Assembly: GCA_009691705.1 (NCBI GenBank)
Contig: SIAR01000011.1
Location: 1 to 63,740 of the forward strand
Source: Phycisphaerales bacterium
GTDB taxonomy: Bacteria > Planctomycetota > Phycisphaerae > Phycisphaerales > SM1A02
Length of the DNA: 63,740 nt
Reading direction: 5' to 3'
Positions 102 through 56,460 of the stretch are shown one piece after another. The notes beneath the pieces were generated by a model, which worked only from the letters and a program-made list of their open reading frames with translations, was not told where the DNA came from and did not search any database. Position 1 is the first letter of the stretch, and each line of letters opens with the position of its first letter. Made by a program: the position numbers and the translations under genes.

Positions 102-2678
102 CTACGGAGCGATTGGCGCGGACGGTGGCCGCACCTCTGGTGGTGCGCTCTGGCCCGGGACGATCACAGTGTCGGTACGGTCTTTGCGCTTCTCTTCAAC
201 CTTCAGCTTGTCGCGCACTCCCATCTTTGCTTGCGATCGCTCACCGCGCATGCGCTCATCCGCCCGCGCTGCTTCGCGTTGAAATCGAGCTGCGATGACC
301 GAGTGCGCCATTTTCGCGAACGGCTCATCAGAGCGAAGCGCGGCGGCGAGTTGGGGATCCTCTGGAGAGATGCAGTAGTTCAGCAGATACGCACCACGCA
401 CATCGCCCGAGGTCGTTGCGCGCGCGAGTTCGAGCACGGGGTGAAGCTCATTGACGTTGCGCGGTCCAACCAGCAACACCCACGCTTGACCATGCGCGGG
501 CAACTTGGCAAATCCATCGGTAATCGCCTTCCACGCCACTGCCGCTTGCTCGGCAGAGAGCAACTTGCTCTTTGCTGCGTAGATGAGCAGGACGAGCGTC
601 CGAAGATCTTCGTCTGTTTCTGGAGCGGCGGCGCGCGCAATTGCTGCGTCGATCCATTGGTCATTCACCCGCACTCCGGCAACTTCAACATTCGGCACAC
701 TCGGACTCGCCCCAAGCGTTCCTGGATTGAATGATCCCGCCTCGGCGTTGAAGTTCAACGCTCCGCGCACTGAGAGGGTCGACCCCGCGATTGGATCGAG
801 GTTTAGGCGAAATCCGACCTCGGTGAAACTCATATCCCAGAGCATTTCCATCGACTCACTCGGTGCGAGTTGGATCGCACGATCGAATGGGATAATTTGC
901 GGAAGGAGTCGTTCGACACCGGCAGCCGAACTCGAGTTGAGTCTTGGCTGCAGCAACACGTTCTGTTTGATGGGACCGCCAAGCGCCACAGCCATCGTCA
1001 AGTCAGATTGGTTCGTGACGATAAGTCGATATCGAATTGGATCGAACGCCTCGACAATAATTTTCTCGGGGATGACCTGAAAGAGGAATGCCTTGGTGGA
1101 TCCGGCGAGATACTGCTCGAACGCCGGCGGGATGGAGGCGACGATTCCGTCGAGGCTTGCGACTGATGGCCTGGCGGGGATGTCTGCGCCGACCAGTTCT
1201 TTGAATTCGGCCGCTGCCAGAATGCCAATGAGATTTCCACGCTCGCTCGTAGCGATGGCAAAAAACCCGCGAGCGGCATCCTTGAGATTCCCCGCCGCAG
1301 CGCGCGCTTTCGCGCGCATGAACTGCGCTGCAGGAGCGGTTGACGTTGACTGGTCGAGAATCGCGAGCGCACCTGCGCCATCCCCCGCTTTCATTTTCAT
1401 CCAGGCGCTGATGCGCAACTTGGCATCATCATTCAGAGGCGCCCTCTTCTCTGCTGCATCGATGAGCCCTTGCACTAGCGGCGCGTCCGCTCCAATTAGC
1501 GCCGCAGTCATGGCAGTATCAAGCAGACCTGATGCGGCGAATTCTGCTTGTCGGCGCCGCGCCTCAATGCTTGCAACCGCACCCGTTTGGGAAGGCCGCT
1601 GCGTTGGATCGTCCTGCTCAGCCTGCTCCTTTGACGCATCGATCATTCGCGCAATCGCCGCTGCTGCCTTCTGGTGCTTTGCTGAGACTTTAATCGCAGC
1701 GTCAACGACTGCGACGAGAGGCGGAGTCATGAACGGAATCAAGACGCATTCTGCGCGCGTCAGGGTTGGGTTGTACATTTGATACTGCACCGTTTGATTC
1801 TCTGTGCAAATCGCAATATGCCGCTGCAGCACGGCAACGGCATCATCCGCGCGGCCTGACGCCCAGAGCGCAAGCGCTTGATCGGTGACAATGAGGTCGA
1901 CGATCGCCTCGTTCCCTTTCTTTGCGCGCCCAGCAAGCGCGGCGAGTTGGTAGACGCGGGCTGCTGATCCGTAGGCGCCCTCTTGCATGAGAAGTGCTCC
2001 GAGTCGTCCCCACATGCGCTCTTCGATCGGGTTTGCGAGGATTGCGGTCACTAGCAACTCTGCTTCTGCAACTGGATCGTCGAGTCTTTCGTTGGCGAAT
2101 CCTGCGGCGGTCTCTGCCGCTGCCGGGAACGAAGGCGAGAGTGCGAGAGCCTGCGCAAGGTCACGACCGAACGCGTCAACATCACCCATGCGTAGTTCGA
2201 GCAGCGCCAAGTCAAACGAGAGGCGCGAGGCGACCGGAACTCCAATGATCTTGATGGTCTCTGGCGTGAGATACCGCTTAAAAACTTGAGTTGTTTCTTC
2301 AGCCTTCTGATAACGGCCGATTTCGTGCAGCAATCTGCGCAATCGAATCACTTCATCCGCTGGCTCGAGCCTCGTGAGTTGTTCAAGCGCCCGCTGCCCC
2401 GCCTCGACTGCGGCGGGCATGATGTCGCCCGCAAATCCGCTCAAACCCAAAAGCATTCGCCATCGGATTGGATCGTTTGGAGCGAGTAAGGCCGACTTTG
2501 TTGCGAAAAATATGGCCGCCTCAAGCTCGACAGGTGCGAGGTCTGTCGGCGTCACGGTCGAGTACGCCTCGCGCATGAGTATCTGTCCAAATCGAAGGGA
2601 TGCGGCATCCCATAGAGTGGGAGTGGAAGTCGCCTGAGCTTGGCCGCAAAGGCAAAGAGTCAGGACGATTGCGAACAT
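102..2678 (-). CDS. Large secreted protein with TPR-like helical repeats, unknown function
   Basis: An 858-residue protein. The frame is open further upstream, but the start at 2678 is preferred because it gives a clean signal peptide (MFAIVLTLCLCGQAQA) and sits exactly 6 nt after a TACACT box. The mature part is Ala-rich and helical, with degenerate TPR-like pairs (for example around LWASGRADDAVAVLQRH). A more beta-like segment follows near residues 570-720, and the charged tail ends in Pro-rich sequence (PPEVRPPSAP). I recognise no catalytic motif. It is probably an exported scaffold or assembly protein. It is divergent from the secreted protein at 2719, with only 40 nt between the two starts. 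Confidence 0.75.
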   Translation of the reverse strand: MFAIVLTLCLCGQAQATSTPTLWDAASLRFGQILMREAYSTVTPTDLAPVELEAAIFFATKSALLAPNDPIRWRMLLGLSGFAGDIMPAAVEAGQRALEQLTRLEPADEVIRLRRLLHEIGRYQKAEETTQVFKRYLTPETIKIIGVPVASRLSFDLALLELRMGDVDAFGRDLAQALALSPSFPAAAETAAGFANERLDDPVAEAELLVTAILANPIEERMWGRLGALLMQEGAYGSAARVYQLAALAGRAKKGNEAIVDLIVTDQALALWASGRADDAVAVLQRHIAICTENQTVQYQMYNPTLTRAECVLIPFMTPPLVAVVDAAIKVSAKHQKAAAAIARMIDASKEQAEQDDPTQRPSQTGAVASIEARRRQAEFAASGLLDTAMTAALIGADAPLVQGLIDAAEKRAPLNDDAKLRISAWMKMKAGDGAGALAILDQSTSTAPAAQFMRAKARAAAGNLKDAARGFFAIATSERGNLIGILAAAEFKELVGADIPARPSVASLDGIVASIPPAFEQYLAGSTKAFLFQVIPEKIIVEAFDPIRYRLIVTNQSDLTMAVALGGPIKQNVLLQPRLNSSSAAGVERLLPQIIPFDRAIQLAPSESMEMLWDMSFTEVGFRLNLDPIAGSTLSVRGALNFNAEAGSFNPGTLGASPSVPNVEVAGVRVNDQWIDAAIARAAAPETDEDLRTLVLLIYAAKSKLLSAEQAAVAWKAITDGFAKLPAHGQAWVLLVGPRNVNELHPVLELARATTSGDVRGAYLLNYCISPEDPQLAAALRSDEPFAKMAHSVIAARFQREAARADERMRGERSQAKMGVRDKLKVEEKRKDRTDTVIVPGQSAPPEVRPPSAPIAP

Positions 2679-2684
2679 GCGAAA

Positions 2685-2690
2685 AGTGTA
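2685..2690 (-). promoter_or_regulatory. -10 box of a probable leaderless promoter
   Basis: TACACT on the minus strand, preceded by GC, ends 6 nt before the ATG at 2678. In a standard promoter this puts +1 on the A of the ATG. There is no Shine-Dalgarno sequence. It forms an 11-nt-spaced inverted repeat with the plus-strand TACACT at 2702-2707. Confidence 0.55.
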
Positions 2691-2701
2691 GCGGTTTGGG
2701 T

Positions 2702-2707
2702 TACACT
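2702..2707 (+). promoter_or_regulatory. -10 box of divergent promoter
   Basis: TACACT, preceded by GT, ends 11 nt before the ATG at 2719. The transcript would have a leader of only about 5 nt. It is the mirror image of the minus-strand box at 2685-2690. Confidence 0.5.
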
Positions 2708-2718
2708 CCCCCGCTCCA

Positions 2719-3774
2719 ATGTGCGCAACACGAATCATTTCGACAGTGCTCTCGCTGATGATTACACTCGCAGCATCGGCACAAACCGTACTCACACTCT
2801 CAGACACGATCGTCTCGAGCACCGTTCTTGACGCCGACGGAAAGAAAGAAGTGGCGACCTTCATCAAGGCAACTGCGACATTGCTGCGCAGCCAGGATGC
2901 CAGTCAAGTGCGAAAGGGGCGCGAGTCGATCATCAACACGATCGGCAAGTCGCAAGCGAATTCGCCCTTTCGAACCCTCTTCACAGCGTTGATGCTGCCT
3001 AGCCTGAAAGAAGTCATCAAGACTGGAACGCAGTTGCAAGGGGTCAATGCCCTCGAAGTGATGCGCGCCCTGAACTCGCCAGACTCGCTCTCAGCACTCG
3101 CTGAGCAGTGTTCGCTCACTGCCCAACCACAGCCGTCGCTGCGGCTTGTTGCCAGCGGAGGTCTGGCAACATCAATTCTCTTCACCGATCTCAATACCGC
3201 TCAGGCCGACGCCATTGTTCGAACACTCAGCACATGCATCGATCGAGAGATTGATTGGATGGTCACCGCGTACGAGTTGCAGTCATTGAAGGCCTTGGCA
3301 ACCTCGCCGCGCGTGCCAAAGGCGAGCCAGGGGACCGCTCGGGTCGTTGAGTCGAGCGCACTGTCGACGCTCGTGAACAAGATTCGTAAAAAGTCGGTCG
3401 ACGCGATCATGATTAGAGCGGTCAATCGAACCCTCGATGCGATTCTTTCGGGACAGATCGAGGCCACCGATGCAACAGCGATGGCTGACTTTGGAAAGTC
3501 GCTCGAACCCGCGCTCAAGACCTTGATCGACATGGCGAAGGATCCGCCTTCAACTGAGCATGCGGTGGCATTTGCGCAGTCCGCGAAGTTGGCTGAATCT
3601 CTCTTGAACAACCTCGGCGGCAACCGGAAGCCGACGAAGGGTGCTGGGGGCAGCAAGCCCGCTACAGCGCAGAGCGGATCGACCGACGTTTCTTCTGAAC
3701 GCTTTTGCCGCACAGTGACTGCGTACGCTGTGCCGCGATGCGATGGGTCTGCTGCGTTCTCCTTGTACTGCTGA
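2719..3774 (+). CDS. Secreted helical protein, unknown function
   Basis: A 351-residue protein with a Sec signal peptide ending ASA-Q (residues about 1-22). The rest is mostly alpha-helical with HEAT-like Leu/Ala spacing, then a low-complexity Gly/Lys/Ser stretch near residues 300-325. The last 25 residues are cysteine- and aromatic-containing. No family is recognised. Its 3' end overlaps the next gene by 37 nt if that gene starts at 3738, so the last residues are constrained by two frames. It may be cotranscribed with the peptide-binding protein downstream, but nothing in the protein links it to transport. Confidence 0.7.
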   Translation: MCATRIISTVLSLMITLAASAQTVLTLSDTIVSSTVLDADGKKEVATFIKATATLLRSQDASQVRKGRESIINTIGKSQANSPFRTLFTALMLPSLKEVIKTGTQLQGVNALEVMRALNSPDSLSALAEQCSLTAQPQPSLRLVASGGLATSILFTDLNTAQADAIVRTLSTCIDREIDWMVTAYELQSLKALATSPRVPKASQGTARVVESSALSTLVNKIRKKSVDAIMIRAVNRTLDAILSGQIEATDATAMADFGKSLEPALKTLIDMAKDPPSTEHAVAFAQSAKLAESLLNNLGGNRKPTKGAGGSKPATAQSGSTDVSSERFCRTVTAYAVPRCDGSAAFSLYC

Positions 3775-5624
3775 CCGCTGGGGCCGTTGTTACATTTGAT
3801 GGATCGAGATCGCGGGCAGACATCACGTTTGCGAGTGCCGATGTCTTCACGATGGATCCGCAGCGGATGAGTTACATGCAAGACTTGCGGGTTGCGCGGG
3901 CGCTTTTCGAAGGACTCTGCGCCCGCGACAACACACTGGACAGAGCAACGCCTGGGGTCGCACTCAACTGGGACGTTTCTGCCGATGGAAAAAAGTGGAC
4001 CTTCCACTTGCGCCCCGAAGCGCGGTGGACCAACGGCGACCAAGTTACTAGTGGCGACTTTCGCAGTGCATGGCGAAGACTGTTGCTGCCCGACACCGCT
4101 GCCGACTACACCGAGTTGCTCTTCTCGGTGCGCGGCGCGCGGGCGTTCTTTGCGTGGAGGGTGGAAGCGTTGGCGCAGTACGTGGCAGGATCGATCCACG
4201 ACGATGCGGCGGCGCAAGCGCTCTGGACCACGACGCTCGAAACATTCGACGCGATGGTTGCGATTCACGCGCCCGATGATCAGACGTTGGTCGTCGAGCT
4301 TGAGAATCCAGTGCCATATTGGCTCGATCTCTGCGCGTTTCCGACGCTCGCACCGATTCACGAACGCTCACTGGCGAAGTGGACACGGATCAATCCTGCA
4401 ACAGGGCTCGTTCAATCCGATGCGGGATGGACAAAGCCCGGAGTGCTGGTAACGAATGGCCCGATGAAACTGGTCGAGTGGCGATACAAGCGTGGCATGC
4501 GACTCGAACCAAACGAACTCTATGTTGGAGCAAATCCACCGCTGGCGGGGAGCGTTGAGGTGGTTCCAATCGAGGATGCGAACACCGCCGTGCTCGCCTA
4601 TGAATCGGGAAGCATCGACTGGATCAGCGATCTCACTGCGGAGTTTCGAGCAGACCTTGCCCAAGCATCACGGCAGTGGCGTGAAGCACACCAGACCGAA
4701 TTCGAACTGCGAATTGCGGCCGGAGCAACAGTCGATGAGGCTCTTGCGGCACTTCCTGCGCCAGACATGGCGCGCGGCGAGCGGCGCGACGTGCATGTTT
4801 TGAGCGCGTTTGGTACGGATTTTTGGAGCTTCAACTGCCGTCCACTGCTCTCGAACTCACAGCCCAATCCATTCGCCGATGCCCGCGTTCGCCGGGCGTT
4901 TGCTCAGGCGGTCGACAAGCGCGCGCTCACGAGTTCTGTGACGCGACTCAATGAACCCGTTGCGACGACGCTTGTTCCAGTTGGATCGATCGCGGGATAC
5001 ACCTCACCCGCTGGTTTGTCGTTCGATGTCGCCAGGGCACGACAAGAGATGGCAGCAGCTGGATGGATCGACCGCAATGCAGATGGCATAGTCGAGAACA
5101 GTGCGGGAGTGCCATTTCCAACCGTCGACATGCTCTACATGACTGGCAATCCACGGGTGAAGAACATCGCGATTGCCCTTGCTGCGATGTGGCGCGATGC
5201 ACTTGGAGTGCAATGCGAACTGCGCGCAAAGGACGGCAAGTTTGCGAAGGAAGATTTGCGCCGCGGCAACTTCATGATTGCCCGCGGAGGGTGGTATGGC
5301 GACTATGCCGATCCAACAACTTTTCTTGATCTGTCGCGCACTGGCAACGGCAACAACGACCGCGCATTTTCAAACGCGCGCTTCGATGAATTGTTGGGCG
5401 AGGCTGAACGCGAACTCGATCCAACGAAACGCATGGCGCTCTTGACTGCTGCCGAACGATTGCTTGTCGAAGAGGAGATGCCGATCCTTCCGCTCTGTCA
5501 GTATGTCACGCTCTACATGTACGACCCGGCGGCGGTGGCTGGACTCACCCGCCATCCGCGTCTTGACCAACAACTCTCGCAGTTGCGACGGGTGCGCGAT
5601 GCATCGGTGAGTGTGTTGCCATGA
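3738..5624 (+). CDS. Peptide ABC transporter substrate-binding protein (OppA/DppA family)
   Basis: A 628-residue family-5 extracellular solute-binding protein. The start at 3738 gives MRWVCCVLLVLLTAGAVV as signal or anchor; there is no clear lipobox. Typical family features follow: the early MDP segment with ARALFEGLC, the WTFHLRPEARWTNGDQVTSGDF motif region near residues 85-110, and FADARVRRAFAQAVDKRAL near residue 385. The family binds oligopeptides or other small solutes outside the membrane. Its stop overlaps the permease start by 4 nt. Only one permease follows, with no second permease and no ATPase. An upstream start at 3705 is possible but would sit in the preceding gene without a signal-like N-terminus. 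Confidence 0.88.
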   Translation: MRWVCCVLLVLLTAGAVVTFDGSRSRADITFASADVFTMDPQRMSYMQDLRVARALFEGLCARDNTLDRATPGVALNWDVSADGKKWTFHLRPEARWTNGDQVTSGDFRSAWRRLLLPDTAADYTELLFSVRGARAFFAWRVEALAQYVAGSIHDDAAAQALWTTTLETFDAMVAIHAPDDQTLVVELENPVPYWLDLCAFPTLAPIHERSLAKWTRINPATGLVQSDAGWTKPGVLVTNGPMKLVEWRYKRGMRLEPNELYVGANPPLAGSVEVVPIEDANTAVLAYESGSIDWISDLTAEFRADLAQASRQWREAHQTEFELRIAAGATVDEALAALPAPDMARGERRDVHVLSAFGTDFWSFNCRPLLSNSQPNPFADARVRRAFAQAVDKRALTSSVTRLNEPVATTLVPVGSIAGYTSPAGLSFDVARARQEMAAAGWIDRNADGIVENSAGVPFPTVDMLYMTGNPRVKNIAIALAAMWRDALGVQCELRAKDGKFAKEDLRRGNFMIARGGWYGDYADPTTFLDLSRTGNGNNDRAFSNARFDELLGEAERELDPTKRMALLTAAERLLVEEEMPILPLCQYVTLYMYDPAAVAGLTRHPRLDQQLSQLRRVRDASVSVLP

Positions 5625-6604: not shown

Positions 6605-6605
6605 C

Positions 6606-6611
6606 TAGACT
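6606..6611 (+). promoter_or_regulatory. -10 box of a probable leaderless promoter
   Basis: TAGACT, preceded by GC, ends exactly 6 nt before the ATG at 6618. No ribosome-binding site is present between it and the start. Confidence 0.55.
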
Positions 6612-9939: not shown

Positions 9940-9945
9940 AGAGTA
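9940..9945 (-). promoter_or_regulatory. -10 box of a probable leaderless promoter
   Basis: TACTCT on the minus strand, preceded by GT, ends 6 nt before the ATG of the pyrophosphatase gene at 9933. Confidence 0.5.
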
Positions 9946-13665: not shown

Positions 13666-13671
13666 ACTCTA
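13666..13671 (-). promoter_or_regulatory. -10 box of a probable leaderless promoter
   Basis: TAGAGT on the minus strand, preceded by GT, ends 6 nt before ATG 13659 of the tricorn-like gene. Confidence 0.5.
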
Positions 13672-13717: not shown

Positions 13718-13723
13718 TATTCT
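13718..13723 (+). promoter_or_regulatory. -10 box of divergent promoter
   Basis: TATTCT, preceded by GC, ends 9 nt before the ATG at 13733. It shares the 73-nt divergent region with the tricorn-like gene promoter. Confidence 0.45.
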
Positions 13724-13732: not shown

Positions 13733-14830
13733 ATGCGAACCGAATCACTCTCGTTCTTGCGCCGTCTGCTTGACACTCCAAGCCCATCTGGATTCGAACA
13801 CGATGGCCAGCGACTCTGGCTCGATTACACCAAGCCACTCGCGACCAAGACCTGGTCGGACGCGTACGGAAACTGCTTTGCTGAACTGCTGCCAACGCGG
13901 GGTCTTGCAGACAACACCCGCACGATTGCCGTGTGCGGACACGCCGACGAGATCGGATTGATGGTGAACCACGTTGACTCGCAGGGATTCGTCTACTGCA
14001 AGGCGATTGGAGGCATTGATTCAGGATCGATCGTCGGCAAGCGCATCCAGTTTCGCTCGTCCGTGGCCGGAGTGACCGATCCTGTCATCGGACTCGTCGG
14101 TGCGACTGCGATTCACTTGCAAGACAAAGATGCCGGCGCGAAAGTTCGCAAGGTGCATGAGCTCTTCATCGACATCGGCGGCAAAGACCAAGCAGCCACC
14201 CTTGCCAGGCTGAACATTGGCGACGCAGGAGTTTTTCTCGACACGAGCATGATGCTGAGCGATGAACTCATCGTGGCGCGCGCGCTCGATAATCGCATCG
14301 GAACATTTGTCGCGGCCGAGACCCTGCGGCTTGTTGCAGAGCAGCGCGCATTGCTCAACGTGCGGGTTGTTGCAGTGAGCACGGTCCAAGAAGAAGTTGG
14401 ATTGAACGGCGCGGCGATGATCGCCGAGAGTTTGCGACCAGACATCGCGCTTGTGACCGACGTTGGTCATTCGACTGATAGTCCGGGCATCTCACACCCG
14501 CAGCATGGTCAGTTCAAGATGGGTGAGGGCCCCAAGCTCGCCATCGGTGGTGCGCTCCATCCTGCCATTGTGGCTCGACTGACCGCCGCGGCAGCAGCCA
14601 AGACAATTCCCCTGCAGCGGGCGGCAACGCCAGGACGCAGCGGCACTGACACCGATGCGATCTTTCTTCGCGCGGGAGGAATTCCTTGTGGATTGCTGAG
14701 CCTGCCAATTCGATACATGCACACCACAGTCGAACTCGGAAACATTCGCGATTTGCGGCAGATTTCTGAAGTGTTCGCGGCCATGATTCTCGACTTCCAG
14801 AGTGGCGAATCAATCACAAGTGGTCTGTGA
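13733..14830 (+). CDS. M42 family metallo-aminopeptidase
   Basis: A 365-residue cytoplasmic peptidase of the M42 (glutamyl/deblocking aminopeptidase, FrvX-like) family. The metal ligands and catalytic residues are visible: HADEIG (His70, Asp72), ARALDNRIG (Asp186), VQEEVGLNGA (Glu220/Glu221), TDVGH (Asp243), GTDTDAI and RYMHT near the end. These enzymes form large tetrahedral assemblies and trim peptides. It faces the tricorn-like protease divergently, which fits a joint role in peptide turnover, although the tricorn homologue carries an export signal. Its stop overlaps the next GTG by 4 nt. Confidence 0.93.
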   Translation: MRTESLSFLRRLLDTPSPSGFEHDGQRLWLDYTKPLATKTWSDAYGNCFAELLPTRGLADNTRTIAVCGHADEIGLMVNHVDSQGFVYCKAIGGIDSGSIVGKRIQFRSSVAGVTDPVIGLVGATAIHLQDKDAGAKVRKVHELFIDIGGKDQAATLARLNIGDAGVFLDTSMMLSDELIVARALDNRIGTFVAAETLRLVAEQRALLNVRVVAVSTVQEEVGLNGAAMIAESLRPDIALVTDVGHSTDSPGISHPQHGQFKMGEGPKLAIGGALHPAIVARLTAAAAAKTIPLQRAATPGRSGTDTDAIFLRAGGIPCGLLSLPIRYMHTTVELGNIRDLRQISEVFAAMILDFQSGESITSGL

Positions 14831-17745: not shown

Positions 17746-17751
17746 AGATTA
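17746..17751 (-). promoter_or_regulatory. Possible -10 box overlapping the esterase stop
   Basis: TAATCT on the minus strand (its TAA is the esterase stop codon) ends 5 nt before the rlmE ATG. The flank is AC rather than the usual G[C/T], so this is weaker than the others. Confidence 0.35.
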
Positions 17752-19497
17752 GTCGTGGTGCGCGCCGACATGAAAGAAGGCGCGTATCTCGTGATTGAAT
17801 CGCACTTGCGCAGGTTGGTAGACGCTGTCGTGCGTTGCGCCAGGAACAATTTCGATGTAACCCGGTCCAGTAGCAAAGACCCGACCCGCCGCCGATTCTT
17901 GTCGCATGTGTTCATCGATCGAATCGCGCAAGCGAATGGCGGCGCGCTCGAGATAAAACGAATCGCGCTCGCCAACAATGACCCGCACCCGTTCAACAAA
18001 TATCTCTCCGATGCCACTCCAGTCCTGACGAACGCGCCGCGCAATGTCGTAGTGACTCCACGCCTCAACCGTCACTGCATCGATCACCCCAGTGTGCGCA
18101 TCGCAGAGTCGACGTGGTTCGCCCCCTCCCGTCGCGATGGGACTGAACATCGCAGCCCACGAATCCCACTGCTGCCCCGACGATCCTTGCGGCGAGAGTG
18201 CGTACTCCATGCCCACCTCATCGCGCACCAGCATCGGAACGAGGTCATGACTTGGACCAATGGCTTGCCGAAAACTTGGCCGGTGTGTGCCATCATCGGC
18301 CGTGTACAAGTTGATGTCGCGGTAAAGGTCGCTCATCTCGAACGCCGAAAAGTCGAGTGGATCGGGACTACTGGCGAACGCTCCTCCAAACATCTTGGGA
18401 TGGTTGATCGTGAGCCAGACGCTGGTCCATCCGCCCGAGGAGTGGCCAGTGACAACCCGCGCACTTGGATGGCGAATCAACCGAAAGCGCGTTTCAAGGT
18501 AGGGAATGAGTTCGGTCACCAGGGCGGTGCCGCGCGGACCATTCGCAGGACTGTCGACGAATCCATGATGGCCAAATGCACTTTCGGGGTCAAGAATCAC
18601 ATAGACGGCTTGCGGCCAGAGTCCGGCAAGGGCGGGATTGTCCACTTTCGCAGCGATATCGATCGCATCAGTGAATCGACCGCCAAACCCAGGCACAACA
18701 TAGACGGTTGGCCAAATGCGGCGCTTCGCACGAATGTCGTGGTAGCCAACCGGAAAGATCACCGCCGCTCGGTGCGTCACCGCACGCTCCGCCGCCGCCG
18801 ACAGCAGTGCGCTTGGATGGTCGATCCACACCACATTCTTGAGCGCGGGCAGAGCGAGCGCTGTGATCTTCTGCGAGAGCTCGAGCGCGACGACATCGGC
18901 CGCCTCGCGGTTGAAGAGGATGGTCACTGGCTCCGACGAGAGGTTTCCGTTGGCGAGGTGGCCGCATTCACTCTCGTTGACGTCGAACACCGCCTGCACT
19001 TCATACTCGCCTTCGAAGAGTTCAGACCCCCCTGGCCACCAGACGCTCGACGCTGCGAATTCGATCGGTACTCCCGGCGCCAACGCCGCGACCTGAATCG
19101 ATGCGATTGGTTGCGGGTCTTCGAAGAAAGGTGCCATTGATGGATCACCACTCGCCCGACTATCGAGCGCTCGAAAAAAGAGAATGAGGCGGCCGGATCG
19201 GTGCGTTGCGTCGAGCCACTCGCTTCGCGCTTGCGGCAAAACCACGGTGATGGTGTCAGCGGGAAGCGCCACCCCGGCCTGCGCCGGTCGCACGCGCCGC
19301 CCTTTGTCAATGCGGGTTCGGTCGGGCGCACTGGCCGTTGGTTGCGGCGCGGTTGTCGGTGCCGGCGAGTTTGCACTGGTGGGTTGCTGCGCGGGCGCCA
19401 CCCGCTGTTGTTGGTGTGGACACAAGAGTGCGAGCGAGATGAAGAGTGCCAAGACCACAAGACGATCGTAGTCAGTGACGGGATCGTTAGACTTCAT
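17749..19497 (-). CDS. Secreted or membrane-anchored alpha/beta-hydrolase (esterase-D type)
   Basis: A 582-residue protein. The N-terminal hydrophobic segment (LVVLALFISLALL) is followed by a Pro/Ala/Gln/Thr-rich spacer to about residue 65, then a beta-rich domain, then an esterase domain from about residue 240. The nucleophile elbow is GHSSGGWTS, with WPTVYVVPGFGG before it and a candidate catalytic His in GATHDS near residue 555. The family includes enterochelin and S-formylglutathione esterases; the substrate here is unknown. Its ATG lies only 2 nt from the GTG of the divergent lipoprotein gene, so each promoter must overlap the other gene. Confidence 0.85.
   Translation of the reverse strand: MKSNDPVTDYDRLVVLALFISLALLCPHQQQRVAPAQQPTSANSPAPTTAPQPTASAPDRTRIDKGRRVRPAQAGVALPADTITVVLPQARSEWLDATHRSGRLILFFRALDSRASGDPSMAPFFEDPQPIASIQVAALAPGVPIEFAASSVWWPGGSELFEGEYEVQAVFDVNESECGHLANGNLSSEPVTILFNREAADVVALELSQKITALALPALKNVVWIDHPSALLSAAAERAVTHRAAVIFPVGYHDIRAKRRIWPTVYVVPGFGGRFTDAIDIAAKVDNPALAGLWPQAVYVILDPESAFGHHGFVDSPANGPRGTALVTELIPYLETRFRLIRHPSARVVTGHSSGGWTSVWLTINHPKMFGGAFASSPDPLDFSAFEMSDLYRDINLYTADDGTHRPSFRQAIGPSHDLVPMLVRDEVGMEYALSPQGSSGQQWDSWAAMFSPIATGGGEPRRLCDAHTGVIDAVTVEAWSHYDIARRVRQDWSGIGEIFVERVRVIVGERDSFYLERAAIRLRDSIDEHMRQESAAGRVFATGPGYIEIVPGATHDSVYQPAQVRFNHEIRAFFHVGAHHD
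19488..19493 (+). promoter_or_regulatory. -10 box inside the divergent esterase gene
   Basis: TAGACT, preceded by GT, ends exactly 6 nt before the GTG at 19500. The box lies over the first codons of the minus-strand esterase gene (ATG at 19497), so initiation in one direction could interfere with the other. Confidence 0.5.
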
Positions 19498-19499
19498 CC

Positions 19500-20336
19500 G
19501 TGCGACGCGCCAGCTCGATTACCGGCCTTTGTTCAATGCTGCTGGGGACAGTCGCGCTGGCTGCTGGTTGCACCGCGAATGTGCGTCCTGGAATTGCATA
19601 CGGCGTAGTTCAAACATGGAACCGCAGTGTGGGTGGTCACGTGCATGAGAACGAATCGTTTCTCGTGCCAGCCGCTGGCGTGATCAACGTCGAAGTCGAC
19701 AACTTTGCTGGCAACGTTGTAATGCATGCGGTGGGCGATGGTGCGACGGCATCGATCGATGTCGTTCGACGCGCCACACATGGTCTTGGACGGCACAGCG
19801 AGTCTGAAGAATCACTCAAGCAACTCGCTGTGGCCTACGGCGTCGAAGAACGCGGCGGTCGCGCAACACTTGTCGTCAAAGCAACAACGACGCACGTCGA
19901 ACCTTGGTTTCAAGCCGTTGATATCGACATCGCCGTGCCGCGCCTCGGCGTAGTCATCGTGCGCACAAGTCGCGGTCACGTGATGGTCACCAACTTCGAA
20001 GATGGCGTCGACATCGAAACATCTCACGGCGATGTGCGCGCTGCAACGAACGCGGCCATCCTCTCGCCGTCGACAATCCTGAACCGAGAAGGATCGATCG
20101 ACTGGCGCGTTGCTCCAAAGAGCGCTGGTTCATTTCAAATGGAAGCGGTCAACGGGCAAGCTCAGATTCGTGTGCGCGATGGAGTGTGGCTTGCAACCGA
20201 TCGGCGCAACGACAGCAACTCGAACTACGGGGTGCTCAATCGTGGCACGAATCTTGTGATCCTGCGCACTGTTGATGGCGACATTCGCATGTACGTCGGC
20301 GAGAGCCCCACCGAAATGGGCACGTTCATCGATTGA
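19500..20336 (+). CDS. Putative lipoprotein with DUF4097-like beta-helix character
   Basis: A 278-residue protein. The GTG start gives a signal with basic residues and a lipobox (ALAAGC); an ATG at 19536 would remove the basic head. The mature part has repeating short beta strands (INVEVDNFAGNVVMHAV, VVIVRTSRGHVMVTNF, VDIETSHGDVRAAT, LRTVDGDIRMYV) in the style of the DUF4097/DUF2807 adhesin-like beta-solenoids. It is therefore probably an envelope lipoprotein of structural role. The assignment rests on pattern only. It converges with queF, only 8 nt apart. Confidence 0.7.
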   Translation: MRRASSITGLCSMLLGTVALAAGCTANVRPGIAYGVVQTWNRSVGGHVHENESFLVPAAGVINVEVDNFAGNVVMHAVGDGATASIDVVRRATHGLGRHSESEESLKQLAVAYGVEERGGRATLVVKATTTHVEPWFQAVDIDIAVPRLGVVIVRTSRGHVMVTNFEDGVDIETSHGDVRAATNAAILSPSTILNREGSIDWRVAPKSAGSFQMEAVNGQAQIRVRDGVWLATDRRNDSNSNYGVLNRGTNLVILRTVDGDIRMYVGESPTEMGTFID

Positions 20337-27789: not shown

Positions 27790-27795
27790 TACAAT
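27790..27795 (+). promoter_or_regulatory. -10 box of a probable leaderless promoter for carA
   Basis: TACAAT, preceded by GT, ends 7 nt before the ATG at 27803. No Shine-Dalgarno is present. The spacer to the divergent secretin gene (27628-27802) otherwise shows only a small TCGCC/GGCGA hairpin near 27727. Confidence 0.5.
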
Positions 27796-27802: not shown

Positions 27803-29053
27803 ATGTCGATGTCAGAGTCCACTTATGCGCCCGCACAGCACCCCTGCCGCCTCGTCTTGGCAGATGGCACCATCTTCGACGGCCTCGGATTTGGGGCAGT
27901 CGGCACGGCCATCCTGAACTTTGGTGAGGTCGTCTTCAATACGGCGCTGACTGGGTACCAAGAGGCGCTCACAGATCCGAGTTATTGCGGGCAAATACTG
28001 ACATTTTCGGCGACTCAGATCGGCAACTACGGCATCACGACCGATGACGTGGAGAGCGGACGTCCGACTGTGCAAGGGGTGGTAGTTCGCGAGCTCAGTC
28101 GAATTTGGTCGAACCAACGCGCGGTCGAAGGGCTCTCGCAATGGCTCGCCCGTTTCGGAATTCCAGGAATTCATGAGATTGACACACGCGCACTGGTTCG
28201 CCGGCTTCGAAACTCTGGATCGATGAACGGTTTGATATGCGGCGATCCATCCCGTGATTCGGACGAACTTCTGCGGTTGGTGCGGGCGAGCGCGTCGATG
28301 TCTGGCAAGAACCTGGCGAGTGGTGTTAGCCCCAAATCGGCGTGCCAATGGGATGAACCGCTTGGAGAGTGGGCTCCGCGAGAGTCTGCCGGAATGCATA
28401 TCGCCCGACGCCCGCTCAAAGTTGTGGCGATCGACTGCGGCGCAAAGCGCAACATTTACCGCAACTTGACCGAGCGCAACTGTGAAGTACACGCCCTGCC
28501 GCATGATGTCTCGGCGGCGACAATTCGGGCACTCAAGCCCGATGGGCTTTTCATTTCGAATGGTCCTGGCGATCCTGCGGCGGTTACCGCGACCGTGAGC
28601 ACCCTGCGTGAAATCGCTGGAGAAATACCCACTTTTGGCATCTGCCTTGGGCACCAACTGCTTGCCCTTGCCCTTGGGGCGACGACCTACAAACTCAAGT
28701 TTGGTCATCGCGGATCGAACCAACCGGTGCGCAACTTGCTGAGTGGGCAGATCGAAATCACAAGCCAGAACCATGGATTCTGCGTCGACGAACTCAGCCT
28801 GCGCGCCGCGGGTGGCGAACCGACGCATGTACATCTGAACGACGGCACAGTTGCTGGATTCCGCCACGCCACGAAGCCGATTTTCAGCGTGCAGTACCAC
28901 CCAGAGGCGTCGCCAGGTCCGCATGATTCTGACTACCTCTTCGATTGCTTCGTCGAATTGATGGAAACGGGTGGAACGCTGACCGAAGCATCGATGCGAA
29001 AGGCGCAAACGCGCGCCGCAGTTCTCGCCCGTGGCGAACGCGCAGCGCGATGA
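27803..29053 (+). CDS. carA: Carbamoyl-phosphate synthase small (glutaminase) subunit
   Basis: A 416-residue subunit that hydrolyses glutamine and passes ammonia to CarB for carbamoyl phosphate, used for arginine and pyrimidines. The N-terminal domain shows GEVVFNTALTGYQEALTDPSY and GIPGIHEIDTRALVRRLR. The class I amidotransferase triad is Cys281 in FGICLGHQ and His366/Glu368 in QYHPEASPGPHDS. The start is set by the TACAAT box; longer frames upstream have a non-family N-terminus. Its stop overlaps the priA ATG by 4 nt. carB lies 27 kb away on the other strand. Confidence 0.94.
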   Translation: MSMSESTYAPAQHPCRLVLADGTIFDGLGFGAVGTAILNFGEVVFNTALTGYQEALTDPSYCGQILTFSATQIGNYGITTDDVESGRPTVQGVVVRELSRIWSNQRAVEGLSQWLARFGIPGIHEIDTRALVRRLRNSGSMNGLICGDPSRDSDELLRLVRASASMSGKNLASGVSPKSACQWDEPLGEWAPRESAGMHIARRPLKVVAIDCGAKRNIYRNLTERNCEVHALPHDVSAATIRALKPDGLFISNGPGDPAAVTATVSTLREIAGEIPTFGICLGHQLLALALGATTYKLKFGHRGSNQPVRNLLSGQIEITSQNHGFCVDELSLRAAGGEPTHVHLNDGTVAGFRHATKPIFSVQYHPEASPGPHDSDYLFDCFVELMETGGTLTEASMRKAQTRAAVLARGERAAR

Positions 29054-52290: not shown

Positions 52291-53208
52291 TCAATTTGCG
52301 ATGAGGTCTTCGAGGACCGCCATGCGCGCCGCAACACCGTGGGTGACTTGCCGCAGAATGCGACTTCGCTTGGGATCATCCGCGACTCGATCATCTATTT
52401 CAATACCGCGATTGATAGGACCAGGATGAAGGATGACAACATGGGGAGCGAGTCTCGTGATTCGTTCTGGGGTGAGTCCAAACATCTGCCGATAGTCACT
52501 CGAAATTGCACCGCCAGCGGCTCGTTCGAATTGCACTCGCAACATCATGACAGCATCGACCCCTTCGAGAGCCGTATCTAAATTGGTCATCGTCGAAACA
52601 CTGCCGGGTCCTTGCGTAATTCGCTCAAAACTCTTCGAAACGAGCGTTGGAGGACCGACGAGTCGCACATGTGCGCCGAGCGTCGAGAGCGCGTGGGTCG
52701 TCGAGCGCGCGACGCGACTATTTGTGATGTCGCCAACAATCGCAATCGTGCGGTCTTCGAGCGGTCCAAACTCTTCGATGAGGGTTGAGACATCGAGCAG
52801 GCCCTGGGTGGGATGCTCGTGGCGGCCATCCCCTGCATTGATAACTGGGCACTTCACCCCGTCGGCGATCATCTGCGCGCCGCCCGAAATCGCACAGCGC
52901 ACGACGATCGCTGCAACTCCCATGCACTCGATGTTTCTCGCCGTATCGACCAGCGTTTCGCCCTTGTTGAGACTCGAACCGCTCGGCGTGAGGTTGAACA
53001 CCTGCCCGCCGAGTCGGTGCACCGCCGTTTCGAAACTGCAACGCGTTCGGGTCGAGTCTTCGAAAAACAGATTGGCGATCACACGACCATTGAGCGATGT
53101 GCGATTGGGAGCCTTACCCTCGGCAATGGGAACATTCTTGCTCGTCGCATCGAGCAGTCGAATGAGTTCTTGGCGGGGTATTCCCGCGATCTTGAGAAAG
53201 TCTGCCAC
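52291..53208 (-). CDS. pyrB: Aspartate carbamoyltransferase catalytic subunit
   Basis: A 305-residue enzyme that joins carbamoyl phosphate and aspartate, the first committed pyrimidine step. Signature: FFEDSTRTRCSFE for carbamoyl phosphate, DGRHEHPTQGLLD, and HPGPINRGIEI. No regulatory pyrI and no dihydroorotase follows. The GTG start at 53208 is 15 nt after the radA stop, so the gene is probably cotranscribed with radA. It uses the product of carAB, also encoded in this window. Confidence 0.94.
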   Translation of the reverse strand: MADFLKIAGIPRQELIRLLDATSKNVPIAEGKAPNRTSLNGRVIANLFFEDSTRTRCSFETAVHRLGGQVFNLTPSGSSLNKGETLVDTARNIECMGVAAIVVRCAISGGAQMIADGVKCPVINAGDGRHEHPTQGLLDVSTLIEEFGPLEDRTIAIVGDITNSRVARSTTHALSTLGAHVRLVGPPTLVSKSFERITQGPGSVSTMTNLDTALEGVDAVMMLRVQFERAAGGAISSDYRQMFGLTPERITRLAPHVVILHPGPINRGIEIDDRVADDPKRSRILRQVTHGVAARMAVLEDLIAN

Positions 53209-53223
53209 AGTTTCTGCCAGAGT

Positions 53224-54621
53224 TCAGTTCACACGCTTCACCGGCGATAATAGTTCAAGTGCATGGGCAATGCTGCGCATCGCAACGACTTCACCGACGC
53301 GGCGCTTGATCGTGTCGACCTGCCCTGCCGGCACGAGCACAGTGTTGCAACCTCGGCGCACTGCCTCGGCGACGCGTTGCTCAAGCATGCGCACAGGACG
53401 GATCTCGCCAGAGAGCCCGACTTCACCGATGATCGCCGTGCCTGGCGCAAGGGCCCGCGAAAGGTGCGCCCCCGCGATTGCGAGGCAGAGCGCGAGGTCG
53501 GCGGCTGGTTCGACGATACGAAGTCCACCTGCGACGCTTGTATAGATGTCTTGATCGGCGAGACGCAATCCACCGTGCTTTTCTAGAACAGCGATCATCA
53601 TCGAGAGGCGGCCGCTGTCCATGCCGCTGGCCTTGCGCTTGGCGCTGCCAAGAAAGCCTGCCGCGGCGAGCGCTTGAATCTCGGCCAGAAGCACCCGACT
53701 TCCTGCCATGACTGGAACAACTGCCGTTCCAGGACGCGGCTCGGTGGCGTTCGCTGCGGCAAGTGCGCTCTCGTCGACTTCGATGAGTCCTGCGCCAGTC
53801 ATCTCGAAGAGACCGATCTCGTGGGTCGATCCAAAACGATTTTTGGTTGCACGCACCAGGCGATAGGCGTGGTGGCGCTCTCCCTCGAACGAGAGCACAA
53901 CATCGACAAGGTGCTCGAGCAACTTAGGACCTGCGAGGTCGCCTTCTTTGGTGACATGTCCCACGATGATCACAACGGTGCCGGTGGTCTTGGCAAACTG
54001 CACGAGCTCGAGACAGCAACGGCGCAACTGGGTCATCGATCCTGGAAGTGCATCAGCGTCGTGTCGATGCACGAGTTGAATACTGTCGACCGCAAGCAGC
54101 GTTGCCTTCACACGACGCGCTTCATTCGTGATGCGCGCGACAGAACTTTCGGCGAGCAAGAAGAGATTGGCATCGCGCACGGCGCCTTCGTTCTCGCCCA
54201 GAATGCGCTGTGCGCGCAACTTGACTTGCTGCGCGCTCTCTTCGCTGCTGGCGTAAAGCACCCGTTCACCCGCGCCCGCCAGTGCTGAGAATGCCTGCAA
54301 AAGCAGCGTGCTTTTACCGATTCCAGGATCGCCACCCACCAGAACGGCGCTGCCTGGCACCAGACCGCCGCCAAGCGTGCGATCGAATTCGCTGATACCA
54401 GTTGGAAGTCGCGGCACTGCAAGCGGAGAGATTTCTGCCATCGGCGCAGCGGATGGCGGCGTGCCGTCAACGCCAGCACTGGGCGAGTCATCATCGGCGC
54501 CGGCGTCGGTTCGGAACGGCTCGACGGTGTCCCATGCCCCGCACTCGAGGCAACGCCCCGACCAACGTGGTGCGACCGCGCCGCAATCTCGGCAGAGAAA
54601 ACTTGTCTTGAGTTTGGACAC
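53224..54621 (-). CDS. radA: DNA repair protein RadA (Sms)
   Basis: A 465-residue RecA-like branch-migration protein. N-terminal zinc finger (CRDCG and CLECG), Walker A in GGDPGIGKSTLL, the RadA-specific KNRFGST motif (in TKNRFGSTHEIGLFEM), and a Lon-protease-like C-terminal domain with the usual catalytic residues missing. An ATG seven codons upstream (54642) is open, but TACACT lies 7 nt before the GTG at 54621, and the family starts at SKLKTSF. GTG is therefore the likely start and the upstream codons are promoter. Confidence 0.93.
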   Translation of the reverse strand: MSKLKTSFLCRDCGAVAPRWSGRCLECGAWDTVEPFRTDAGADDDSPSAGVDGTPPSAAPMAEISPLAVPRLPTGISEFDRTLGGGLVPGSAVLVGGDPGIGKSTLLLQAFSALAGAGERVLYASSEESAQQVKLRAQRILGENEGAVRDANLFLLAESSVARITNEARRVKATLLAVDSIQLVHRHDADALPGSMTQLRRCCLELVQFAKTTGTVVIIVGHVTKEGDLAGPKLLEHLVDVVLSFEGERHHAYRLVRATKNRFGSTHEIGLFEMTGAGLIEVDESALAAANATEPRPGTAVVPVMAGSRVLLAEIQALAAAGFLGSAKRKASGMDSGRLSMMIAVLEKHGGLRLADQDIYTSVAGGLRIVEPAADLALCLAIAGAHLSRALAPGTAIIGEVGLSGEIRPVRMLEQRVAEAVRRGCNTVLVPAGQVDTIKRRVGEVVAMRSIAHALELLSPVKRVN

Positions 54622-54628
54622 TCCCCGC

Positions 54629-54634
54629 AGTGTA
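54629..54634 (-). promoter_or_regulatory. -10 box of a probable leaderless promoter for radA
   Basis: TACACT on the minus strand ends 7 nt before GTG 54621. It lies inside the alternative longer reading frame, arguing against the ATG at 54642. Confidence 0.55.
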
Positions 54635-54642
54635 GAGATCAC

Positions 54643-54823
54643 TTGGCGCCATCCCCAAAACCGAGATATTCCGCTGCCAAAAAGAACGCAGGCGCCGGTC
54701 GAGTCGGAGTTCGGTCGGCGCCCGCGAGGGGAAAGACTCTTTGGTTGTCACAGCGCGCAATGCGCGCCGCACGTGAACTCTAACCGAACATTGCGCACAA
54801 CTGCAAGTTGTACGGGTGCGCGG
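54643..54823. other. Intergenic region upstream of radA
   Basis: 180 nt. Apart from the radA -10 box at its edge, the only structure is a GGCGCCG/CGGCGCC inverted repeat near 54692-54723 with an 18-nt loop and no T-run. It may end the carB-side transcript. No gene is seen. Confidence 0.4.
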
Positions 54824-55054
54824 TCACTTCATCAGTTGCCGCATGCGCGCAACCCACGCGCCATATTCGAGCACTGCCTGCGTCTGCGAACGCCATGAAA
54901 AGCGCGATTGGGTTGCGACGTCGCTGCGGGTTGTTCCGAATGCTGTCTCATTGCGCCACACCCAATATGCGCCGCCAAAACGAAATCTCGTTGTCACGCC
55001 CAGTCGCGCGAGGGCGAAGATGGCGCGCATTTTGTCTAGAAATGTGAGTTGCAT
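54824..55054 (-). CDS. Small uncharacterised protein, likely real
   Basis: A 76-residue basic protein with no signal or membrane segment. It begins MQLTFLDKMRAIFALAR, has an aromatic core (RFRFGGAYWVWRNETAFG) and ends LEYGAWVARMRQLMK. Composition is protein-like (regular Trp, Tyr and Phe with a helical head and tail), and the ATG lies 14 nt after the nuoH stop on the same strand. I do not recognise the family. The FRFGGAYWVWR and LEYGAWVARMR segments look conserved enough to search with. It could be a small nucleic-acid-binding or regulatory protein, but that is a guess. Confidence 0.6.
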   Translation of the reverse strand: MQLTFLDKMRAIFALARLGVTTRFRFGGAYWVWRNETAFGTTRSDVATQSRFSWRSQTQAVLEYGAWVARMRQLMK

Positions 55055-55068
55055 ACGGTGGGTCTGAT

Positions 55069-56445
55069 TCAGTGAATCGAGATGATGCCTTGGCGGGGAT
55101 CTTGAATCGGTGCGTCACTGAGCGCAACGGGATGGGTCGACGCCGCTGCGACATTTTCCTCAGCAAGCGGCGAATACCGGCTTCCGGCGAGCGGCAGTTT
55201 GTGATTTGGATTCGCCGCGCGAGGCATGAATGGACGCACGAGGCAGATGATGGCGAGGCAGGCGAGGGATGCGATCCACATGTACTGGGTCACGCCAAAG
55301 AATGTCATCGCAGCTGCGGCGGTGAGCAGTAAGAGTGATATTGGAATCATCCCTTCCCAGGCGAGTTTCATGAGCTGATCGAAGCGAAAGCGCGGAAGGG
55401 TCCAGCGAATTGCCATCGTGAATGCGACGACGAGGCCGGTCTTGCCGAGCATGATTGCCATCTGGGCGAGGATGATTGGCAGCGATCCAACAATTGGAAG
55501 TTCGAAGTTCCACGATGGTGGAGTGACGCCGCCCAGTGGGTTGACGCTGAATCCGCCGAGAAAGAGCAGCGCGAAGAACGCCGATCCAGTGATGACGTGA
55601 AAGTATTCAGCGAGAAAGAACATCGCGAAACGCATCGACGAATACTCGGTGTGAAAGCCACCAACTAGTTCGCTCTCTGCTTCGGCGAGATCGAATGGCG
55701 CGCGATTCGATTCGGCGAGCATGCATGTATAGAAGAGGATCGCAACGAGCGGTTGCGAGATGAGATTCCAACTGTATTGTTGTTGGTGGGCGATGATGAC
55801 GTATGGGTCGAGTGACCCAGCAACCAAGATGATGCAAAGCAGGCAGAGCCCCATCGGAATCTCGTACGAGATCATCTGCGCACTGGCGCGCAGTCCTCCC
55901 AAGAATGAGAACTTGCTGCCGCTTGCCCAACCGCCCAGTGCGACACCGTAGACGCCCAGGCTTGTGACTGCGATGAGATAGATCACACCGACGTTGATGT
56001 TGGCGCCGATGACTTTGACGAGTGATCCGTCAAAGCCAAAGGTCGAGGACAAGAATGAAGTAACGAATGTTGGCAGTGTCGCGAGGTCGAGAATGCCTCC
56101 CCACGGAATGATCACGAACGCGGCCATTGCCGGCAGAATTGCGAGCGCAGGGCCGAGCGTGAAGAGCACCGCATCGGCACCCTTGGGAGTGTGCTCTTCT
56201 TTCATGATGAACTTGAGACCATCGGCGAGTGGTTGCAGAAGCCCCTTGGGACCGACCCGATTTGGACCGACCCGATCTTGCATCCAGGCGCTCAGTTTTC
56301 GCTCGAGCATGACGCCGTACGCGCAGCCACCCAGAAGCACATGCACCATCAACACGATGACGATCACGTTGGCGATCAACTGCGGCATGCCACCCGTGAT
56401 TGGGATGAGGGTCGGCAAGCTCGCGAGAGTATGCATAGGAATCAT
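55069..56445 (-). CDS. nuoH: NADH-quinone oxidoreductase subunit H
   Basis: A 458-residue membrane subunit of respiratory complex I that bridges the Q-module and the proton-pumping arm. Diagnostic: ERKLSAWMQDRVGPNRVGPKGLLQPLADGLK, in which the quinone-binding Arg and Glu lie, and the loop ESNRAPFDLAEAESELVGGFHTEYS. About eight or nine membrane helices plus a C-terminal 60-residue extension. It stands alone between carB and a small gene, with no other nuo gene in the window, and has a TAGACT box 9 nt before its ATG. Confidence 0.94.
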   Translation of the reverse strand: MIPMHTLASLPTLIPITGGMPQLIANVIVIVLMVHVLLGGCAYGVMLERKLSAWMQDRVGPNRVGPKGLLQPLADGLKFIMKEEHTPKGADAVLFTLGPALAILPAMAAFVIIPWGGILDLATLPTFVTSFLSSTFGFDGSLVKVIGANINVGVIYLIAVTSLGVYGVALGGWASGSKFSFLGGLRASAQMISYEIPMGLCLLCIILVAGSLDPYVIIAHQQQYSWNLISQPLVAILFYTCMLAESNRAPFDLAEAESELVGGFHTEYSSMRFAMFFLAEYFHVITGSAFFALLFLGGFSVNPLGGVTPPSWNFELPIVGSLPIILAQMAIMLGKTGLVVAFTMAIRWTLPRFRFDQLMKLAWEGMIPISLLLLTAAAAMTFFGVTQYMWIASLACLAIICLVRPFMPRAANPNHKLPLAGSRYSPLAEENVAAASTHPVALSDAPIQDPRQGIISIH

Positions 56446-56454
56446 GAGAATCGA

Positions 56455-56460
56455 AGTCTA
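56455..56460 (-). promoter_or_regulatory. -10 box of a probable leaderless promoter for nuoH
   Basis: TAGACT on the minus strand, preceded by GC, ends 9 nt before the nuoH ATG at 56445, just after the carB stop. Confidence 0.5.

Follow-up and report, generated by a model that had tools for sequence, protein, structure and literature searches.

In mycobacteria, leaderless transcripts have a TANNNT -10 box and carry an RTG codon at the transcript 5' end. Those transcripts were mapped experimentally, whereas the case that we describe here lies in an unrelated phylum, the planctomycetes, and is read from sequence. A -10 motif adjacent to ORFs has also been described in Deinococcus-Thermus (Zhong et al. 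2025, PMC12340547). According to the accessible parts of that report, close to a third of the genes in D. radiodurans have it, and the -10 box alone suffices in Deinococcus, as tested by reporters and transcriptome. The Deinococcus-Thermus box is TANNNT (TACACT being the commonest form) about 6-7 bp before the start codon, with GGAG-like sites preceding other genes, and in both respects the arrangement below is like it; the two differ in phylum and in that the planctomycete case is known from sequence only. Planctomycetes may have been included in the domain-wide scan of the same article (Fig. S7).

In the accessible text of Zheng et al. 2011 (PMC3160421), TA-led genes carry TANNNT roughly 12 bp before the start, are taken as leaderless, make up >20% of genes in Actinobacteria and Deinococcus-Thermus, and belong to a class for which a decreasing trend in evolution was proposed. 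Our genes share the upstream box and the leaderless reading; they differ in that a single genus exceeds the other members sampled from its order and class. The stem 'planctomyc' has no occurrence in the text of that article. Nakagawa et al. 2017 (PMC5397173), as far as its accessible parts go, found few Shine-Dalgarno (SD) genes in one planctomycete and ascribed a nucleotide bias to leaderless mRNA and/or ribosomal protein S1. Non-SD genes are common in a member of the phylum there as here; unlike our analysis, that work had a single species, resolved no motif or gap in those parts and did not separate the two mechanisms. Among the matches listed in our literature search, which covered titles and abstract openings and few subscription journals, none concerned leaderless transcription or mapped transcription starts in planctomycetes, and a description may exist elsewhere; the accessible parts of PMC2784483, PMC10783764, PMC9581028 and PMC12825309 held nothing decisive for the leaderless question. 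The kind of arrangement is thus already known from Deinococcus and actinobacteria, and what appears to be new is a planctomycete lineage as a member.

TAnnnT boxes upstream of start codons

The window analysed is a 63,740-nt stretch of contig SIAR01000011.1 from a Phycisphaerales bacterium (GCA_009691705.1), a lake relative of Phycisphaera with a small genome. A preliminary description had listed eleven TAnnnT boxes and a weaker twelfth shortly before start codons in this window and had read them as widespread leaderless transcription. All twelve were located at the starts and gaps that it gave (Table 1), and its reading is supported by the analyses below, which establish from sequence the motif and its position, its conservation within the genus, its presence at tRNA genes, the absence of a clear -35 element, SD avoidance and an intact RpoD. 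A further box precedes an in-frame GTG at 19458(-), which is probably where the ORF given as 17749-19497(-) really begins.

Table 1. TAnnnT boxes in the window and the start codons that they precede (gap, nucleotides between box and codon)
Box	Position	Strand	Gap	Start codon	Gene or remark
TACACT	2685..2690	-	6	ATG 2678(-)	divergent partner of 2719(+)
TACACT	2702..2707	+	11	ATG 2719(+)	
TACGCT	3724..3729	+	8	ATG 3738(+)	weak twelfth case
TAGACT	6606..6611	+	6	ATG 6618(+)	
TACTCT	9940..9945	-	6	ATG 9933(-)	inorganic pyrophosphatase gene (Pfam PF00719)
TAGAGT	13666..13671	-	6	ATG 13659(-)	tricorn-like protease gene (named from Pfam domains)
TATTCT	13718..13723	+	9	ATG 13733(+)	M42 peptidase gene
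TAATCT	17746..17751	-	5	ATG 17740(-)	FtsJ-like methyltransferase gene
TACGAT	19465..19470	-	6	GTG 19458(-), in frame	absent from the preliminary description
TAGACT	19488..19493	+	6	GTG 19500(+)	
TACAAT	27790..27795	+	7	ATG 27803(+)	carbamoyl-phosphate synthase small chain gene
TACACT	54629..54634	-	7	GTG 54621(-)	presumed RadA-like gene (from domain content)
TAGACT	56455..56460	-	9	ATG 56445(-)	

For the wider survey, 1172 starts were called without regard to the motif over 1,503,601 of 1,985,919 genome bases (about three quarters), with a crude caller that is not a precise start finder. In the window, its final run matched the preliminary description at seven of twelve starts (9933, 13659, 17740, 13733, 56445, 2719 and 3738) and chose a different one at 2678, 6618, 19500, 27803 and 54621; an earlier run, with less sequence, also missed 2719 and placed 56445 elsewhere. 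Among the disputed starts, the original choice is backed at 2678, 6618, 19500 and 27803 by a box and start kept in relatives, and at 27803 and 54621 by Pfam domains, which begin at residue 17 (PF00988) and residue 9 (a zinc ribbon), respectively. Such misplacement by the caller should lower a TAnnnT peak, not raise it.

A TAnnnT box stood exactly 6 nt upstream of 96 of the 1172 starts and, in a lower peak, 7 nt upstream of 49, far above the chance expectation of 5.5-5.75 per offset, with a tail to gap 11 (23, 39, 28 and 17 starts at gaps 8, 9, 10 and 11). The genome-wide peak 6-7 nt before starts, on which the preliminary description had staked its claim, was therefore present in the three quarters of the genome surveyed, and the TAnnnT observation is confirmed in window and genome alike. 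After background subtraction, boxes at gaps 6-10 accounted for 17.7% of starts, or about one gene in five. Neither control gave a peak: a gap-6 box preceded 4 of 2519 out-of-frame RTG codons within 60 nt (background 9.95) and 14 of 15,432 internal in-frame RTG codons (background 14.4). Over the whole genome the raw pattern GYTANNNT-N6-ATG was not enriched (49 matches, against 53 for the reversed pattern), so the box signal becomes visible only once real gene starts are singled out.

Conservation of box and gap within the genus

At 2678(-), all 19 of the 19 genus genomes, our own included, have TANNNT separated from an in-frame ATG by exactly 6 nt, among proteins whose identity falls to about 39% over the N-terminal query. 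For 13659(-), 18 loci were examined and the gene was found in 16; all 16, our own among them, keep the gap-6 box, the in-frame ATG lying no more than 90 nt from the aligned start. At both genes the six bases between box and codon vary and the 6-nt gap is invariant. The longer spacings are also retained: at 2719(+), every one of the 19 genomes has a TANNNT that precedes an ATG by 10-11 nt (own included; rows read by eye, 11 of the 19 recounted by script), and at 13733(+), 14 of 18 loci (own included) show the gap-9 box, the other four having no gap-9 box and an in-frame ATG further upstream.

Smaller sets of congeners were fetched for six further starts. TAGACT stands 6-8 nt before the ATG of 6618(+) in six of six, and in four of four we found TANNNT-6-GTG at 19458(-), TAGACT-6-GTG at 19500(+), and TACAAT or TATGAT 7-9 nt before the ATG at 27803(+). 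At 56445(-), three of four have gap 9, and the fourth (G002) has TAGACT with the start codon beyond the stretch examined; for 17740(-), one of two congeners has gap 5 (G005) and the other TACTCT at gap 10 (G008).

Promoter elements and sigma factor

De novo EM with no prior recovered TAnncT upstream of operon-first genes and aGGAg in operon-like genes; we did not read the mixing proportions as fractions of genes, since similar values came out of shuffled sequence, where the motifs were weaker. The box consensus was TA[C/G]nCT, and an origin as an overlapping stop codon was rejected on the third base, where C was as common as G (0.38 each). The preliminary description had also included a G[C/T] prefix. 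Nine of its eleven boxes do carry one, but genome-wide the prefix occurred at 42 of 144 gap 6-7 boxes versus 56 of 226 TAnnnT words 20-59 nt upstream (Fisher p 0.40), and we regard it as belonging to the window sample and not to the motif.

Upstream of 34 tRNA genes, TAnnnT occurred at 22 places 4-20 nt away, versus 4.4 expected, which indicates that the box marks transcription and not translation. A -35 element, sought by TTG words and TTGACA matches, gave no clear peak upstream of gene boxes: at least four matches to TTGACA were present at spacings 15, 16, 17 and 18 in 11, 4, 9 and 7 of 144 gene boxes and at most other spacings in 3-7, and 4 of 23 tRNA boxes had a -35-like match at spacing 16. 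RpoD is intact, its C-terminal half being identical to E. coli RpoD at 146 of 237 residues, and YATWWIRQAITR, which we take to be residues of -10 recognition, is identical. The 300 nt upstream of 16S held no TAnnnT in three of three congeners (G003, G013 and G009), which could be explained by long rRNA leaders; a search for a 16S gene in the window's own genome found none. A box on both sides was seen in 26 of 189 divergent pairs, with 24.8 expected under independence, so we claim no special pairing of divergent boxes.

Shine-Dalgarno sites and operon position

GGAG or GAGG words were found before 15501, 31493, 34430 and 43778, in agreement with the GGAG-like sites previously noted at operon-internal genes. 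Across the survey, SD-like words were scarce in genes with a gap 6-10 box and present in others in all three operon classes: 6/117 with a box versus 70/377 without among first genes, 6/39 versus 92/268 among operon-like genes, and 1/20 versus 21/93 in the class between. The anti-SD sequence CCTCC was present in the 16S of three of three congeners read. A gap 6-7 box also preceded 28 of 307 operon-like genes (first sample), so that first-gene specificity is only partial.

Boxes at longer gaps

The preliminary description had reasoned that a 6-nt spacing places +1 on the start codon. This fits gaps 6-7, but the boxes at gaps 8-11 break the strict rule. In gap 9-10 cases purines were depleted at -3..-1 (62/201 versus 232/435 in gap 6-7 cases, p 1e-7); the depletion was weak for gap 9 and gap 11 each alone (p 0.06 each) and absent at gap 8 (19/46, p 0.88). 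The bases from +7 up to the codon were free of purines in only 17 of 67 gap 9-10 cases, and a purine was already at +7 in 16/39 gap-9 and 11/28 gap-10 cases, which under a first-purine rule would give leaders of 3-4 nt. A box at gap 9-11 calls for a start displaced downstream or else for a leader of 1-5 nt, and it is therefore safer to say 'leaderless or nearly so'.

Distribution outside the genus

The excess of gap 6-10 boxes over background was 15-22% of starts in the four genus samples, patchy in four other families of the order (-2.5 to 12%) and close to zero in two further members of the class; the signal was undetected (about zero) in four genomes taken from beyond that class. With the same pipeline, the positive control, which was the D. 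deserti plasmid only, gave 7.5% (1.3-15.4), and the box index of E. coli was negative. The 'rpoD loci L064-L069' sample is not independent, the same few orthologous genes being repeated in it, and a 20-kb piece of G020 (L183) was excluded as too short. Of 24 box genes of G000 matched in the four other families (mean identity 42-48%; best matches may include paralogues), 0 showed the box in the same column, 7 showed one at another gap and 17 showed none, which speaks against an order-wide feature.

Discussion

We consider it very likely that these boxes are -10 elements of the primary sigma factor that place the transcription start at or near the start codon, and from this we infer leaderless mRNA. 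An ordinary sigma-70 would use the box without a clear -35 element, and RNA polymerase would begin with the start codon's first base at gaps 6-7 and within about 0-5 nt of it at gaps 8-11. The resulting transcripts would lack an SD site and be leaderless or carry only a very short leader, and their translation would begin on a 5'-terminal AUG or GUG, probably by the route known for leaderless mRNA elsewhere in bacteria, while operon-internal genes would mostly rely on SD initiation.

A neighbouring reading keeps the -10 element but gives the transcripts short leaders of about 1-10 nt, so that they would be short-leadered and not leaderless. It gains from the frequency of gap 8-11 boxes, from the purines at +7 and undepleted gap-8 cases, and from the 10-11 nt gap at 2719 itself, conserved throughout the genus. 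We nevertheless regard it as unlikely overall: the main peak is at gap 6, a spacing that does not vary within the genus at 2678 or 13659, and the purine depletion before the codon at gaps 9-10 argues that the start has moved towards the codon.

That the box is instead a translation signal, such as an S1 site or an unusual ribosome binding site, is suggested by its occupying the usual place of a ribosome binding site and replacing SD words, and the accessible text of Nakagawa et al. (PMC5397173) left leaderless and S1 explanations both open for its planctomycete. The boxes at tRNA genes led us to reject this possibility, which we rate as very improbable; in Deinococcus, moreover, TANNNT is not replaceable by a ribosome binding site, according to the accessible parts of PMC12340547. 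Chance or annotation, with starts picked because a box was present, is scarcely credible. The preliminary choice was indeed made by eye, five of its twelve starts disagree with the motif-blind call, and the raw pattern is not enriched; but the genome-wide peak emerged from starts chosen without the motif, against flat controls, and boxes are kept in relatives, and on these grounds chance and selection by eye were rejected.

As to how the arrangement arose, we tentatively suggest, at somewhat less than even confidence, that leaderless units with only a -10 element became more numerous in a single lake lineage of Phycisphaerales with small genomes, whose ancestor relied largely on SD sites; there may instead have been loss in the relatives. 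A gain, if true, would run counter to the proposal that leaderless genes tend to decrease in bacterial evolution. The finding extends the set of bacterial lineages with many leaderless-looking genes to one in a phylum whose transcription has received little study. Gene finders that expect SD sites may misplace starts of this type, and several starts in the window shift when the box is taken into account. With its uneven occurrence among close relatives, the arrangement lends itself to tracing gain or loss of leaderless initiation over short evolutionary distances.

TAnnnT boxes before start codons across the genome

The genome that carries the window (G000) comprises 1,985,919 bases in 46 contigs and is 93% complete, and the window is the entire contig C5. 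We analyzed 1,503,601 of these bases, in stretches that include the window. A codon-pair model blind to upstream motifs called 1201 genes, 1172 of them with a usable upstream region. Taking the gap as the number of nucleotides between the end of the TAnnnT box and the start codon, we found the box at gap 6 before 96 of the 1172 starts and at gap 7 before 49, with 23, 39, 28 and 17 starts at gaps 8, 9, 10 and 11. The background farther upstream was 5.5–5.75 per offset, and gaps 0–5 fell under it (1–5 each). A peak 6–7 nt before starts had been set beforehand as the test of the widespread leaderless transcription proposed in the preliminary description, and it was found on three quarters of the genome; the boxes listed there were each present in the sequence, at the gaps given. 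With background subtracted, 17.7% of starts (bootstrap 15.6–20.0) have a box at gap 6–10. When the start was allowed to be any ATG or GTG in frame up to 90 nt from the call, a gap 6–7 box was found for 204 of 1169 genes versus 28.1 in shifted controls (excess 15%), and a gap 6–10 box for 331 versus 68.2 (excess 22.5%).

The peak at gaps 6–10 was absent from 2519 out-of-frame RTG codons near starts and from 15,432 internal in-frame RTG codons, and the raw pattern, counted across the genome with genes ignored, was not enriched (49 versus 53 for the reversed pattern). Among 623 operon-first genes, the altered words AT...T, TA...A, AA...T, CA...T and TA...C gave no signal of like size; T...AT was raised at gap 6 (18 versus 7.9), perhaps owing to the bases it has in common with TA..AT. 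An EM search given no motif returned TAnncT from the set of 494 operon-first genes, most commonly ending 6 nt before the start (likelihood 308 versus 53–77 in shuffled sequence), and aGGAg from the set of 307 operon-like genes, whose upstream neighbour on the same strand is no more than 25 nt away (200 versus 62–75). In the same 494-gene sample, Shine-Dalgarno-like words preceded 6 of the 117 genes with a gap 6–10 box versus 70 of the 377 without. The division between box and Shine-Dalgarno by operon position is not absolute, as 28 of the 307 operon-like genes have a gap 6–7 box, in these cases a possible promoter in the 3′ end of the preceding gene. The anti-Shine-Dalgarno sequence was intact in all three congeners read.

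Nature of the box

Alignments of boxes chosen at gap 6–7 (n = 119 and n = 144) brought out a preference for C at position 5 (0.53), and A is avoided directly after the box as well as at −4 and −3; no −35 element emerged from them. An overlapping stop codon was rejected because C and G are equally common at the third base. TAnnnT also occurred 22 times 4–20 nt upstream of tRNA genes, where 4.4 occurrences were expected (counted over 34 genes; a separate listing covered 30). Since tRNAs are untranslated, the word is a transcription element, which would be the −10 element of the primary sigma factor. In the C-terminal half of RpoD, 146 of 237 residues, those of YATWWIRQAITR among them, are identical to the E. 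coli protein, and on this comparison RpoD is ordinary. In the three congeners with a complete 16S gene, the 300 nt preceding it contain no TAnnnT, which may be due to long rRNA leaders. A 16S match was obtained in only 4 of 19 genus genomes and not in G000, these genes having perhaps been lost in binning.

Predicted transcription starts

At the usual distance from a −10 element to +1, a gap-6 box places +1 on the start codon. Before 2678(−), the gap to an in-frame ATG is exactly 6 in all 19 genus genomes, own included, with N-terminal identity down to 39% and the ATG at the aligned position in 18 and 21 nt upstream in one. For 13659(−), 18 loci were examined and the gene was present in 16, own included; the gap is 6 in all 16, and about half have the ATG off the aligned position. 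The six bases between box and codon vary freely at both genes across the genus. A leadered gene needs no such base-exact spacing. This result and the next one go beyond the rule of thumb on the −10 to +1 distance.

At gaps 9–10, purines at −3 to −1 were depleted (62/201 versus 232/435 at gaps 6–7; p 1e-7), an arrangement that would shift +1 nearer to the A of ATG. The effect is incomplete: among 67 gap 9–10 genes, only 17 (11/39 and 6/28; expected 14% and 6%) lack a purine from +7 to the codon, gap-8 cases showed no purine depletion before the codon, and the depletion was weak for gap 9 alone and gap 11 alone. Leaders of 1–5 nt are therefore likely for some genes with gaps of 8–11. From the sequence we infer leaderless transcripts and their translation.

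Conservation of boxes in the window

Boxes before start codons in the window and their recurrence in the genus
Start	Box	Recurrence
2719	10–11 nt before ATG	19/19 genus genomes, own included; 11 recounted
6618	TAGACT 6–8 nt before start	6/6 congeners fetched
13733	gap 9	14/18 loci, own included; other four with in-frame ATG upstream
17740	gap 5 in one congener, gap 10 in the other	2 congeners
19500	TAGACT-6-GTG	4/4 congeners fetched
27803	TACAAT or TATGAT 7–9 nt before start	4/4 congeners fetched
56445	TAGACT 9 nt before start	3/4 congeners; start of the fourth beyond the stretch read

The boxes of 2678(−) and 2719(+) lie back to back at 2685–2707, separated by 11 bp, where the whole intergenic region measures 40 bp, and both recur in all 19 genus genomes, own included; at this distance two polymerases could hardly open there simultaneously. 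A further case, outside the preliminary list, is the minus-strand ORF given as 17749–19497(−): its in-frame GTG at 19458, probably the true start, is preceded at gap 6 by TACGAT. TANNNT-6-GTG is kept at 19458(−) in four of four congeners. The starts 19458 and 19500 are thus also paired back to back, with boxes 17 bp apart that both recur in the four congeners fetched. The motif-blind start 60687(+), also absent from that list, has a TAnnnT word 9 nt upstream.

Spread among relatives

By RpoD, the closest relatives bearing a name were metagenome genomes labelled Planctomycetia, Planctomycetota and Phycisphaerales, and outside the genus most of 80 loci bore Phycisphaerales or Phycisphaerae names, so the placement in a planctomycete group is correct. 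The excess of gap 6–10 boxes was measured with one pipeline throughout; samples outside G000 were small (50–377 starts), making single values loose. Within the genus, two congeners had an excess of 15.4% and 21.9%, and the rpoD neighbourhoods, whose genes are not independent, one of 22.2%. Four other families of the order gave 4.9, 8.4, −2.5 and 12.2%, two other class members 0.8 and −2.9%, and RpoD-neighbourhood loci of other relatives 2.7, 1.7 and 5.9%. Four genomes outside the class, where Shine-Dalgarno words are common, ranged from −4.5 to 0.5%. For comparison, the value was 7.5% for plasmid 3 of D. deserti and −6.5% for a 100-kb stretch of E. coli. In orthologue-like pairs within the genus, 33 G000 boxes were in the same column in 21 cases, at another gap in 8 and lost in 4; in pairs with the four other families, none of 24 boxes had a counterpart in its own column.

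The mechanism, here read from sequence alone, is the one already known in Deinococcus-Thermus and actinobacteria; passages of PMC12340547, PMC3160421 and PMC5397173 report a box of this type in this position, or are compatible with one. Within the literature searched, what appears to be new is how strong the box signal is in this genus of Phycisphaerales and that it falls off in the relatives.
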